Program-made: the position numbers and the translations under genes | The notes under the pieces: generated by a model | Database searches by the model: none | What the model saw: the letters and a program-made list of their open reading frames with translations, nothing else | What the model was told of the DNA's origin: nothing | Part shown: positions 41,204-49,350 of the stretch, piece after piece | Layout: the number at the start of each line of letters is the position of its first letter | Position numbering within the stretch: position 1 is the first letter of the stretch | Source of the DNA: Halohasta litchfieldiae | GTDB taxonomy: Archaea > Halobacteriota > Halobacteria > Halobacteriales > Haloferacaceae | Direction: 5' to 3' | NCBI RefSeq assembly: GCF_002788215.1 | Contig: NZ_CP024845.1 | Span: 1,302,001-1,366,000 of the forward strand | Length of the DNA stretch: 64,000 bases

Positions 41204-41357
41204 CGCCATATCTTGCAATAGGTTATGTTTCCACCGCATATACAAAGGAAAAGGTGCATGAAATAGTAGAAATGGCATATATATTATTTTGTAGATACAT
41301 AAAGAGAGAATTAATAAGGAAAGTTTAATTCTGAATTTATGTTTTTTGTTGTACGAG

Positions 41358-42017
41358 ATGATTCAAGATTCGGATCGAGGACAGTCTGAAGTCATTGGAT
41401 CTCTTCTATTTGTGGGATTAATTACGATTGGAATAACAGGTGTAGGTGGATTTGCATTAGCTAATTTCATGGAACAAGCAAATTCCGATGATATATTGAT
41501 GGATTGTTCGATTGAGATGCAGGATGATTCTGTACTAATCACACATACTGGTGGGGAGTCCGCCGATGTAGACGAGTTAAAAATCGTATTCGAAAATGAG
41601 TCATCACAGTCACAAAAAGCGTTTCAGATAACAGAAGGAAATGGGGATGGTTTTTTTGATACGGGAGAATCAGCTGCGTTTGATTCGCCTTCTGTTGAGA
41701 CTGAAATCCAGCTTGTAACCGATAATCAAGTTATTTGCGATACAACAATTGATCCAAGTCTTCAAGAAGAAGAGGAAGAGGAAGAGGAAGAAGAAGAGGA
41801 AGACGAAGAAGAGGAAGAAGAAGAGGAAGACGAAGAAGAGGAAGAAGAAGAAGAAGACGAAGAAGAAGATGAAGAAGAGGAAGACGAAGAAGAAGATGAA
41901 AAAGAAGATGAAGAAGAGGAAGACGAAGAAGAAGATGAAGAAGAGGAAGACGAAGAAGAAGACGAAGAAGAGGAAGAAGAGGAAGGAGATGAAGGAGGCT
42001 TGTTTGGCCTCTTCTAG
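41358..42017 (+). CDS. Pilin-like protein with long Glu/Asp tail
   Basis: The 219-residue protein starts MIQDSDRGQSEVIGSLLFVG, the archaeal pilin/flagellin-type signal: charged residues, then G-Q-S-E-V-I-G and a hydrophobic helix (LITIGITGVGGFALANF). A beta-rich domain to about residue 135 (ILMDCSIEMQDDSVLITHTG, then FENESSQSQKAFQITEGNGD) follows. The last about 75 residues are nearly all Glu and Asp, ending GDEGGLFGLF. Such domains occur at the surface of haloarchaea. The acidic tail comes from a GAA/GAG/GAC repeat tract. I chose the second Met; MLYE from 41346 is possible. Confidence 0.8.
   Translation: MIQDSDRGQSEVIGSLLFVGLITIGITGVGGFALANFMEQANSDDILMDCSIEMQDDSVLITHTGGESADVDELKIVFENESSQSQKAFQITEGNGDGFFDTGESAAFDSPSVETEIQLVTDNQVICDTTIDPSLQEEEEEEEEEEEEDEEEEEEEEDEEEEEEEEDEEEDEEEEDEEEDEKEDEEEEDEEEDEEEEDEEEDEEEEEEEGDEGGLFGLF
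41766..41983 (+). repeat. GAA/GAG/GAC codon microsatellite
   Basis: This tract of imperfect trinucleotide repeats (mostly GAA, GAG, GAC, and one AAA) encodes the acidic tail of the pilin-like protein. It contains larger periodic units of 9 to 24 bases. Such tracts change length readily by slippage or recombination and would keep frame because the unit is a codon. Confidence 0.9.
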
Positions 42018-46185: not shown

Positions 46186-46371
46186 ATGGAAGTATTAGAA
46201 GGAAACCAAATTGAATGTAGCCGGTGTGAGAATATTATCGAATTAGAGGACGCTGTCGGACTCAATAAGTCAAAATCGATATTCAAACCATTATGCTCTG
46301 ACTGTCTGGGTGCAATTGGTGTTCCACAGGGTTATGATCTTGAGCGTGATATTACGTATCTCGCAAGATAG
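46186..46371 (+). CDS. Small zinc-knuckle protein next to the TFB gene
   Basis: The 61-residue protein starts MEVLEGNQIECSRCENIIEL and has a second pair in PLCSDCLGAIGVPQGYDLER, giving two C-x2-C knuckles about 25 residues apart. This spacing is what a rubredoxin-like or zinc-ribbon domain needs. The in-frame ATG at 46144 would add a hydrophobic stretch. It ends 73 bases before a TFB gene that lacks its own zinc-ribbon cysteines. Whether the two work together is a hypothesis only. Confidence 0.65.
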   Translation: MEVLEGNQIECSRCENIIELEDAVGLNKSKSIFKPLCSDCLGAIGVPQGYDLERDITYLAR

Positions 46372-46444
46372 AAAGTAAAATTGTTTATTGAAATAGTGTC
46401 ATCATGAGCCAAATTCATATCAACACATATTTTAACCTAATATA

Positions 46445-47407
46445 ATGGTATCTCCCGACAGTCGACAAATTACTGAGAGCTTTCAGACCCAACAAGTTGA
46501 TGATACAGCCGAGAACATTGAGCCAGATGAAGTCGACGCTGAAGACGTTGTACAGACAGCAGATGGTGAGTTGATTCACGAACCTACAGGACTCGTTCTT
46601 GAGGAAGACCAAATCGACCATGGACCAGAGTGGCGAGCATTCACTCATTCAGATCGCCAAGAAGTGTCACGTGTTGGAGCACCTATCTCGCAAAATTTCC
46701 ATGACAAAGGACTCACAACAACTATCGACTGGAAAAATCAAGATGCATCTGGCCGATCACTTTCTTCTCAAAAGCAGAATCAAATGCGCCGACTACGGAA
46801 ATGGCAGGACCGTATCCGGACCCAAAACACAGGTGAGCGAAATCTTCAACTCGCACTAAGTGAGATTGATCGAATGACAAGTGCCCTTGGGATTCCAGAT
46901 ACGGTTCAGCAAGTTGCTGCAGTTATGTATCGACGGGCTCTCAATGAAGATTTGATTCGTGGACGATCTATCGAAGGTGTCTCGACTGCACTGTTATATG
47001 CGGCCTGTCGACAAGAGGGAATTCCTCGAAGCCTCGAAGAAGTCGCCGAGGTCTCCCGGGTCGACCGCAAGAAAATCGGGCGGACCTACCGACATGTTGC
47101 CAACGATTTAAGCCTTAAAATGAAGCCTGCTGACCCAAAACAGTACGTACCGCGATTTGCCTCCGAATTAGGTCTCAGCGAACAGACCCGTAGAAAAGCT
47201 AAAAGCGTAATCGATACCACTGCCGAGGAAGGTCTTCTCTCTGGGAAATCTCCCACAGGGTTTGCAGCTGCCGCGATCTACATCGCATCACGGCTCTGTA
47301 ATGAAAGACGGATTCAACGAGAAATTGCTGATGTCGCAAATGTATCTGAGATTACTGTTCGAAATCGCTATCAAGAACAGATGGAGGTATTGGATCAAAA
47401 TAGCTAA
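46445..47407 (+). CDS. tfb: Transcription initiation factor TFB paralogue without zinc-ribbon Cys
   Basis: The 320-residue protein is a TFB: two cyclin repeats (LSEIDRMTSALGIPDTVQQV to about residue 205, then YVPRFASELGLSEQTRRKAK to the end), the B-reader motif GPEWRAF, and helices with RGRSIEGVSTALLYAACRQ. TFB recruits RNA polymerase to TBP-bound promoters. The N-terminal zinc ribbon is degenerate. In the stretch AENIEPDEVDAEDVVQTADG, then ELIHEPTGLVLEEDQIDHGP, all four expected Cys are replaced. This predicts changed polymerase recruitment. No cofactor change in the core is evident. Confidence 0.92.
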   Translation: MVSPDSRQITESFQTQQVDDTAENIEPDEVDAEDVVQTADGELIHEPTGLVLEEDQIDHGPEWRAFTHSDRQEVSRVGAPISQNFHDKGLTTTIDWKNQDASGRSLSSQKQNQMRRLRKWQDRIRTQNTGERNLQLALSEIDRMTSALGIPDTVQQVAAVMYRRALNEDLIRGRSIEGVSTALLYAACRQEGIPRSLEEVAEVSRVDRKKIGRTYRHVANDLSLKMKPADPKQYVPRFASELGLSEQTRRKAKSVIDTTAEEGLLSGKSPTGFAAAAIYIASRLCNERRIQREIADVANVSEITVRNRYQEQMEVLDQNS

Positions 47408-48330: not shown

Positions 48331-49098
48331 TCAGATGTTTTCAGCAATATAGCTTTCAATCTCCTCAACGAGTGGTTGTCGGAAGGTCCAAAAGCCATCC
48401 CAGACGTTCGGTTCGTCTTCAAGTGCGAGGAGCGCGACGTGGTCTGTTATCTCGGCATCCGGTGGCGGCTGGAAGACGACAAACCACGACCGACGGTATG
48501 GATAAGAAGTACCTGTATGGACAGTCACTGGGAGATCGTCGCTCGGATCGGTATCACCAACCCCATAGAGGTGGACATCAATGCCACTGTTACTGAGGAT
48601 TTCATAGACTCTGTAGGTCCCACGTTCATCGTTGAGTCGAGAGAGTCGCTGGAACGATGCACGGAGTCGTCCTCCTCCGGTCTCGGCTGCAATTCGTTCG
48701 ATAACTCGTGAGATGCTGATCAACAAGAGTTTCTCTTTGTTTGAATCCGGATATCCACGGAGGCGGAACGGAACCTCATCAAGGCCCTGCAAAACATCGG
48801 GAAGTGTGATATCTTCGAGATCGATGGCACCCGTTTTGTAGAGGTCAGAATTAATCAATAACACTGATTCGAGCAATTCATCGAGAGTCGAGCGAGCAAG
48901 AATGCCACCATCTTCGACCAGCGCAACAGTATCAGTCTCCTCATCAGCAACATCAAGATCGCTAACCGAGACCGGCTGCCCATCAAGCATTGAATCAAGC
49001 AGTCTGCGAACCGGATACTCAGCATCACGGTTGAGTACCACGAGCTGCCGGTCGGGATTTTTGATTTCCTCGAAAAACCCACGCAATGAGTCGACCAT
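48331..49098 (-). CDS. DICT sensory domain protein
   Basis: The 255-residue protein begins MVDSLRGFFEEIKNPDRQLV, and the C-terminal 100 residues (RTYRVYEILSNSGIDVHLYG-like segment, then YRRSWFVVFQPPPDAEITDH and VWDGFWTFRQPLVEEIESYI) match the DICT domain seen in haloarchaeal and bacterial signalling proteins. The N-terminal half (RRLLDSMLDGQPVSVSDLDV, then VALVEDGGILARSTLDELLE) is the DICT-associated region. No output domain is attached. A small ISH6-related element lies 68 bases upstream of its ATG and may affect its promoter. I chose ATG 49098 because upstream codons read unlike a protein. Confidence 0.8.
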   Translation of the reverse strand: MVDSLRGFFEEIKNPDRQLVVLNRDAEYPVRRLLDSMLDGQPVSVSDLDVADEETDTVALVEDGGILARSTLDELLESVLLINSDLYKTGAIDLEDITLPDVLQGLDEVPFRLRGYPDSNKEKLLLISISRVIERIAAETGGGRLRASFQRLSRLNDERGTYRVYEILSNSGIDVHLYGVGDTDPSDDLPVTVHTGTSYPYRRSWFVVFQPPPDAEITDHVALLALEDEPNVWDGFWTFRQPLVEEIESYIAENI

Positions 49099-49166
49099 CA
49101 TTAGCAAAATAAATTGCCCAAACGGAAATATTTTTCCGAACAATAGATTTGTTCTACCAATATTTC

Positions 49167-49350
49167 GGTCGCGTCGCAAAGCGGTCTAGAGTTTCGAGTT
49201 ATGGTCATGTAGACTACTCGGCGGTGCTATCTCTAACGCTCTCTAAGCTACGTGCACTTGGTGCACACCATTCTAACGCAGTATTTTTGTTTGTACTAAG
49301 TACCGTCGGGACTCTCAGCGGCAAACTCTAGAGGACTTTGCGACACGACC
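49167..49350. mobile_element. Non-autonomous ISH6-related element (MITE), 184 bp
   Basis: Both ends match the ISH6 at 2314-3757. The left is GGTCGCGTCGCAAAGCGG then TCTAGAG. The right, read inward, is GGTCGTGTCGCAAAG then TCCTCTAGAG followed by TTTGCCGCTG, which also follows the ISH6 left end. It has no coding capacity. A 7-bp direct repeat, AATATTT, flanks it at a one-base offset (49159-49165 and 49352-49358). The intact ISH6 transposase could mobilise it. Confidence 0.9.

Follow-up and report, generated by a model that had tools for sequence, protein, structure and literature searches.

The TFB encoded at positions 46445–47407 of the plus strand of the window, the 64,000-nucleotide stretch of the Halohasta litchfieldiae genome analyzed here, has lost all four cysteines of its zinc B-ribbon and keeps its B-reader, linker and both cyclin repeats, and it belongs to a widespread and apparently undescribed family of Cys-less TFBs. 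In TFB and TFIIB, recruitment of RNA polymerase is attributed to the zinc B-ribbon. We favor, at a probability of roughly 60%, the explanation that the zinc B-ribbon has been replaced by a metal-free three-stranded version and that the TFB would still engage RNA polymerase, likely at a promoter set of its own.

The 320-aa window protein contains two stretches matching TFIIB repeats (Pfam PF00382, E 6e-50) and scores above the cut-off of NCBIfam NF001658 (402 bits vs 384). Its helical core of two cyclin-fold repeats (residues 108–320, positions 46766–47404) is supported by Pfam, by Foldseek, for which the Pyrococcus TFB core 1d3u_B is the best match (E 3.6e-14), and by a sequence profile match (E 4e-70). 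The B-reader motif GPEWRAF (residues 60–66, 46622–46642), which is invariant in ribbon-less and ribboned TFBs, is intact, and the linker is also present. In the rewritten ribbon zone, IEPDEVDAEDVVQTADGELIHEPTGLVLEEDQIDH (residues 25–59, 46517–46621), the zinc positions are replaced, such that the zone contains zero cysteines and a single histidine; the first cysteine of the protein occurs at residue 188 or later. The four-ligand zinc B-ribbon is absent, and the corresponding model, Zn_Ribbon_TF (PF08271), is sub-threshold at 24.1 vs 29 bits, with an alignment that covers only model positions 26–43 of 43, the C-terminal part. Counted back from GPEWRAF, the position of the second CxxC pair reads H45-E-P-T48. 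The residues assigned to the first pair vary with the alignment chosen, being E26/E29 in an ungapped alignment and P27/V30 with a one-residue loop deletion (VVQT aligned to LVKS). These results bear out the sequence-only reading, which had described a TFB with GPEWRAF and both cyclin folds whose four ribbon cysteines were replaced (EPDEVD and IHEPTG), and which had placed both this gene and the small gene upstream of it at the correct coordinates. Apart from TFBs with this ribbon-less segment, all full-length TFBs read in the four genomes of the window genus carry the four ribbon cysteines.

A survey for ribbon-less haloarchaeal TFBs, as the sequence-only reading had proposed, returned many of them. 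An N-terminal 87-aa segment was used as the query against 392 genomes of the order, a design that detects relatives of the ribbon-less family, and candidates were confirmed by reading the sequence. A Cys-less TFB was detected in 86 of the 94 Haloferacaceae (f1) genomes sampled, spanning 18 of 21 genera, and was missing from the remaining eight; all four ribbon cysteines are gone in each family member read. Members share a signature of approximately DxDDxDPE[DE]LVRTADGELIHE[EP]TGL[IV][IV]EE..IDxGPEWRAF, and the window TFB, which reads TADGELIHEPTGL, conforms to the Cys-less DGELIHExTG-type signature of the family. As the same ribbon-less segment was found again in 86 genomes, the loss of the cysteines is not due to chance, and a decaying pseudogene or a sequencing artefact was rejected on the basis of this common signature and the low pN/pS values given below. 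Sporadic ribbon-less TFBs were also found outside f1, in family f4 (G148, G313, G250 and G187), in Natronococcus amylolyticus (G294, L073) and in Natronolimnohabitans (L074), and some f1 genomes carry two (G266, G231, G314 and G242). Ribbon-less paralogues located off the conserved locus described below include L295 (G314), L296 (G242) and L173, L175 and L177 of genus g10, and one off-locus ribbon-less paralogue reads GELIDEESG where others have GELIHEETG. The expansion of TFBs in haloarchaea and its clades are already known (PMC4230888); a search of the open-access PMC literature, with subscription papers outside its scope, found no paper on TFBs without zinc ligands.

The usual order of the ribbon-less locus is a divergent rnhA, the tfb gene, and an nreA in the same direction as tfb, with the flanking genes containing RNase H (RNase HI) and Nre domains, respectively. 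Of 39 fetched ribbon-less neighborhoods, 31 have an RnhA match on the upstream side and 30 have an NreA match on the downstream side. At the same rnhA-tfb locus, a four-Cys TFB was found in families f4, f5, f6, f10, f12, f14 and f17 and in the f1 genus g18, and four-Cys TFBs at the rnhA locus were also found in Haloglomus, in a MAG and in HArc-gm2. Since four-Cys TFBs occupy the same locus in other families, the rewriting of the ribbon took place at this locus, in the f1 lineage. In seven further f1 genomes there is an rnhA with no TFB inside 1.5 kb, which indicates that loss or relocation of the gene can occur. In a tree built on the TFB core with the ribbon left out, a single ribbon-less clade was not rejected (AU p 0.50), nor was it proven, and an unconstrained quick core tree requires six changes. 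Comparison across the 94 genomes shows this replacement to be an old change that has been kept by selection; it would have happened once or a few times. Synteny with Haloferax volcanii, in which HVO_0732 encodes an RNase H and HVO_0734 encodes NreA, suggests that the gene between these two codes for a ribbon-less TFB.

Across the 26 rnhA-linked orthologues that made up the selection set, in which high pS values make the ratios approximate, the ribbon zone has a mean identity of 67% and a pN/pS of 0.30, the tail ahead of it 21% and 0.88, the reader plus linker 94% and 0.09, and the cyclin core 92% and 0.10. No column of the ribbon zone contains a cysteine, and nine are invariant when counted back from GPEWR: D-29, R-23, T-22, D-20, H-15, E-14, T-12, G-11 and E-7. 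By these ratios, the rewritten ribbon segment (LVRTADGELIHE[EP]TGL) is a maintained domain under purifying selection and not a decaying one. The B-reader and linker are constrained as strongly as the cyclin core.

The window copy itself is located elsewhere in its genome. This genome is closed, 3.33 Mb in size, and contains ten TFB-like genes, of which the one most similar to the window TFB (G000:C1:1588771, 71% identical) has a Cys-less ribbon zone and is a syntenic family member, and the second most similar (G000:C1:3320229, 66%) has an ordinary ribbon. The window copy does not have rnhA upstream and nreA downstream, and the other copy of the genome (L153) has both. The window copy differs at 44 of the 212 columns that are invariant among the orthologues, compared to 0–3 in other members (26 orthologues). 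With no common neighbor and this number of changed columns, the window copy was rejected as an orthologue of the conserved locus. Its gene has a GC content of 48% vs 62% for the paralogue and resides in an AT-rich stretch; between the two, the ribbon pN/pS is 0.19, and values of 0.16–0.24 outside the tail indicate purifying selection. The two further well-covered Halohasta genomes contain no counterpart of the window copy. On this genomic evidence, the best reading of the window copy is that of a second family member that has moved and diverged, having arisen via duplication or transfer. It probably has its own targets. As the copy is fast-evolving, conclusions drawn for the family may not apply to it. 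Its source was not found, and in a search for a plasmid origin, two Natronococcus CG52 plasmid matches and a pNRC200 match were all four-Cys, with no plasmid-borne ribbon-less TFB among them.

Several other features of the window and its genome were observed. A DICT-domain gene (48331–49179, minus strand) has 88% identical pieces ~33 kb further on (G000:C1:1382311–1384291), which suggests a duplication inside the region around this gene. Positions 41346–42017 of the plus strand contain a 223-aa ORF with an archaeal-type N-terminal segment followed by a very long acidic E/D tract. Elsewhere in the genome, a TFB-like gene (L010, G000:C1:1954614–1955216, minus strand) near a serine-recombinase-like gene has a CxxC...CxxC ribbon and no GPEWR B-reader, the converse of the ribbon-less TFB. 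Tailed haloarchaeal viruses from Deep Lake also encode a TFB, in which the ribbon is intact and the reader is altered to GAEWR (L308, Halorubrum tailed virus OP630574.1).

Two AlphaFold2 models, which contain no metal, both give the ribbon zone of the window TFB three short strands (residues 35–37, 43–45 and 50–52), with moderate confidence from a mixed alignment (ribbon pLDDT ~72) and low confidence from ribbon-less relatives only (~57). In the explanation we favor, the cyclin core would still bind TBP-promoter DNA and the ribbon-less TFB would still sit within RNA polymerase, as its reader and linker are under the same constraint as the core and, to our knowledge, have no use away from the polymerase cleft. 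The metal-free ribbon would probably be held by a hydrophobic or salt-bridged substitute for the zinc site, together with high salt, and would dock more weakly or on an altered surface. The outcome would be a TFB that serves a promoter set of its own or is used under a condition of its own, with a near-invariant ribboned paralogue presumably carrying out the housekeeping. Counting against this explanation, polymerase recruitment in other systems is considered to require the ribbon, so the loss of zinc could abolish recruitment; the eight f1 genomes without the family also show that it is dispensable. The further proposition that the Haloferacaceae carry out part of their transcription with a zinc-independent general initiation factor kept beside the zinc form, that the polymerase-docking ribbon can work metal-free, and that the zinc site is not essential to TFB/TFIIB is put forward tentatively, with the balance tipped slightly against it.

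A role as a repressor or decoy is the alternative that survives best and is nonetheless unlikely. The core would bind TBP and BRE/TATA DNA, recruit no polymerase, and block the promoters of ribboned TFBs. Such a role fits the intact DNA- and TBP-binding core and the general knowledge that TFB/TFIIB docks on the polymerase mainly through its ribbon, and it also fits a family that must be dispensable, given the eight f1 genomes without it. However, in a decoy the reader and linker, with their polymerase-only use, would be expected to decay, and they have instead the identity and pN/pS reported above; the ribbon zone is likewise conserved rather than decaying. From the predicted strands and the constraint on the reader and linker together, we infer that a metal-free ribbon is favored over a pure decoy.

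A more specific form of the metal-free explanation holds that the Cys-less TFB is a zinc-sparing paralogue that stands in for the zinc-TFB under zinc scarcity. The presence of Cys-plus and Cys-less paralogues in one genome (L003, L002) follows a logic like that of the zinc-independent ribosomal proteins of bacteria (PMC5912738). The gene adjoins rnhA and nreA, however, and no zinc-uptake or zinc-regulator gene was recognized in the neighborhoods read, which leaves this version improbable.

Slightly less probable again is a ribbon with a changed metal, in which conserved Asp/Glu, His and Thr residues near the old cysteine sites would hold Mg, Ca, Mn or low-affinity Zn. In all 26 orthologues there is a histidine at the third cysteine position and a threonine at the fourth, with acidic residues around the first two. 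When the loop deletion is allowed, however, the first two cysteine positions become mostly hydrophobic (column -33, L11 P9 V3 F2 I1; column -30, V10 L7 I4 F3 M2), and an aspartate replaces the histidine in relatives L189, L190 and L294, a poor fit to a fixed metal site.

Finally, the gene just upstream of the window TFB (46186–46371, plus strand) does encode, as the sequence-only reading had noted, a small protein with two CxxC pairs (61 aa; C11-x2-C14 and C37-x2-C40). Its start at 46186 is backed by a 75% identical paralogue with the N-terminus MEILEGNQIEC. Against Pfam and NCBIfam, the small protein stayed below every cut-off (DUF7685, 15.4 bits vs 27), no solved structure gave a convincing match, and the Pfam search did not recognize it as a TFB ribbon. 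Homologues were detected in 55 of 170 Haloferacaceae genomes and 4 of 28 genera and are missing in most genera that carry the ribbon-less TFB; none was found within ~6 kb of other ribbon-less TFBs in the 44 neighborhoods read. In 11 relatives with both genes on the same contig, the distance between them is 478–2347 kb, and in the window genome the closest paralogue of the small protein is 1.2 Mb away from the other ribbon-less TFB. When the surroundings of ribbon-less TFBs were scanned for further small CxxC ORFs, none recurred, and all that turned up, at eight loci, was the beginning of a zinc-finger rhomboid-like gene ~2.8 kb upstream. In a single case, an RpoP-like small zinc protein (MGYTCVNCKS...CPYCGHRIW) is encoded on the minus strand ~2.2 kb upstream of the Natronolimnohabitans ribbon-less TFB (L074). 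The proposal that the small protein provides the missing ribbon in trans, attractive for two adjacent genes on one strand with a 73-bp gap and for four cysteines arranged as two pairs, is rejected as having next to no chance given the absence of linkage in relatives and of any recurrent CxxC ORF, and the small protein is almost certainly a coincidental neighbor that lies outside the system and is not part of the mechanism. A location far from such TFBs in relatives is also the outcome that the sequence-only reading had itself named as refuting its trans-ribbon idea. What holds of the sequence-only reading is the loss of all ribbon cysteines and the possibility of a specialized role, for which it had named repression or other RNA polymerase contacts.

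A conserved family without zinc ligands in which the rest of the protein is strongly selected amounts to a natural experiment on what is needed for a ribbon to work. As H. volcanii is genetically tractable, a direct test is feasible if the gene predicted by synteny is ribbon-less. The long-standing question of the large number of TFBs in haloarchaea also gains, with this family, a structurally distinct class to account for.

Compared with archaeal TFB and eukaryotic TFIIB, the ribbon-less TFB has the same GPEWRAF B-reader, linker, two cyclin repeats and full length, and its core matches the Pyrococcus TFB structures 1d3u and 1ais; it differs in having no zinc ligands, a sub-threshold PF08271 match and a rewritten N-terminal half of the ribbon. 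Another close counterpart is the rnhA-linked haloarchaeal TFB, a positional orthologue with the same core and the same place beside a divergent rnhA and sometimes an nreA, which carries CPEC...CEDC outside the Haloferacaceae and no cysteines inside this family, and relative to whose ribboned members the loop of the ribbon-less TFB is one residue shorter. This rnhA-linked TFB may correspond to the clade TfbC/G of Becker et al. 2014. Among bacterial zinc-independent ribosomal proteins, a Cys-less paralogue is similarly kept beside the zinc form, although these act in translation and are under zinc control (PMC5912738). In Haloferax volcanii, the ribbon of TFE-alpha has a single cysteine and low zinc affinity, and Haloferax TFE-beta has lost its FeS cluster (PMC5861453). 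These haloarchaeal basal factors, too, have shed metal ligands while keeping complex formation and their role (PMC5861453), with the difference that TFE-alpha retains one cysteine and weak zinc binding and the ribbon-less TFB is another factor that has lost all four. The single-Cys ribbon of TFE-alpha indicates that the basal factors of haloarchaea tolerate ligand loss (PMC5861453).
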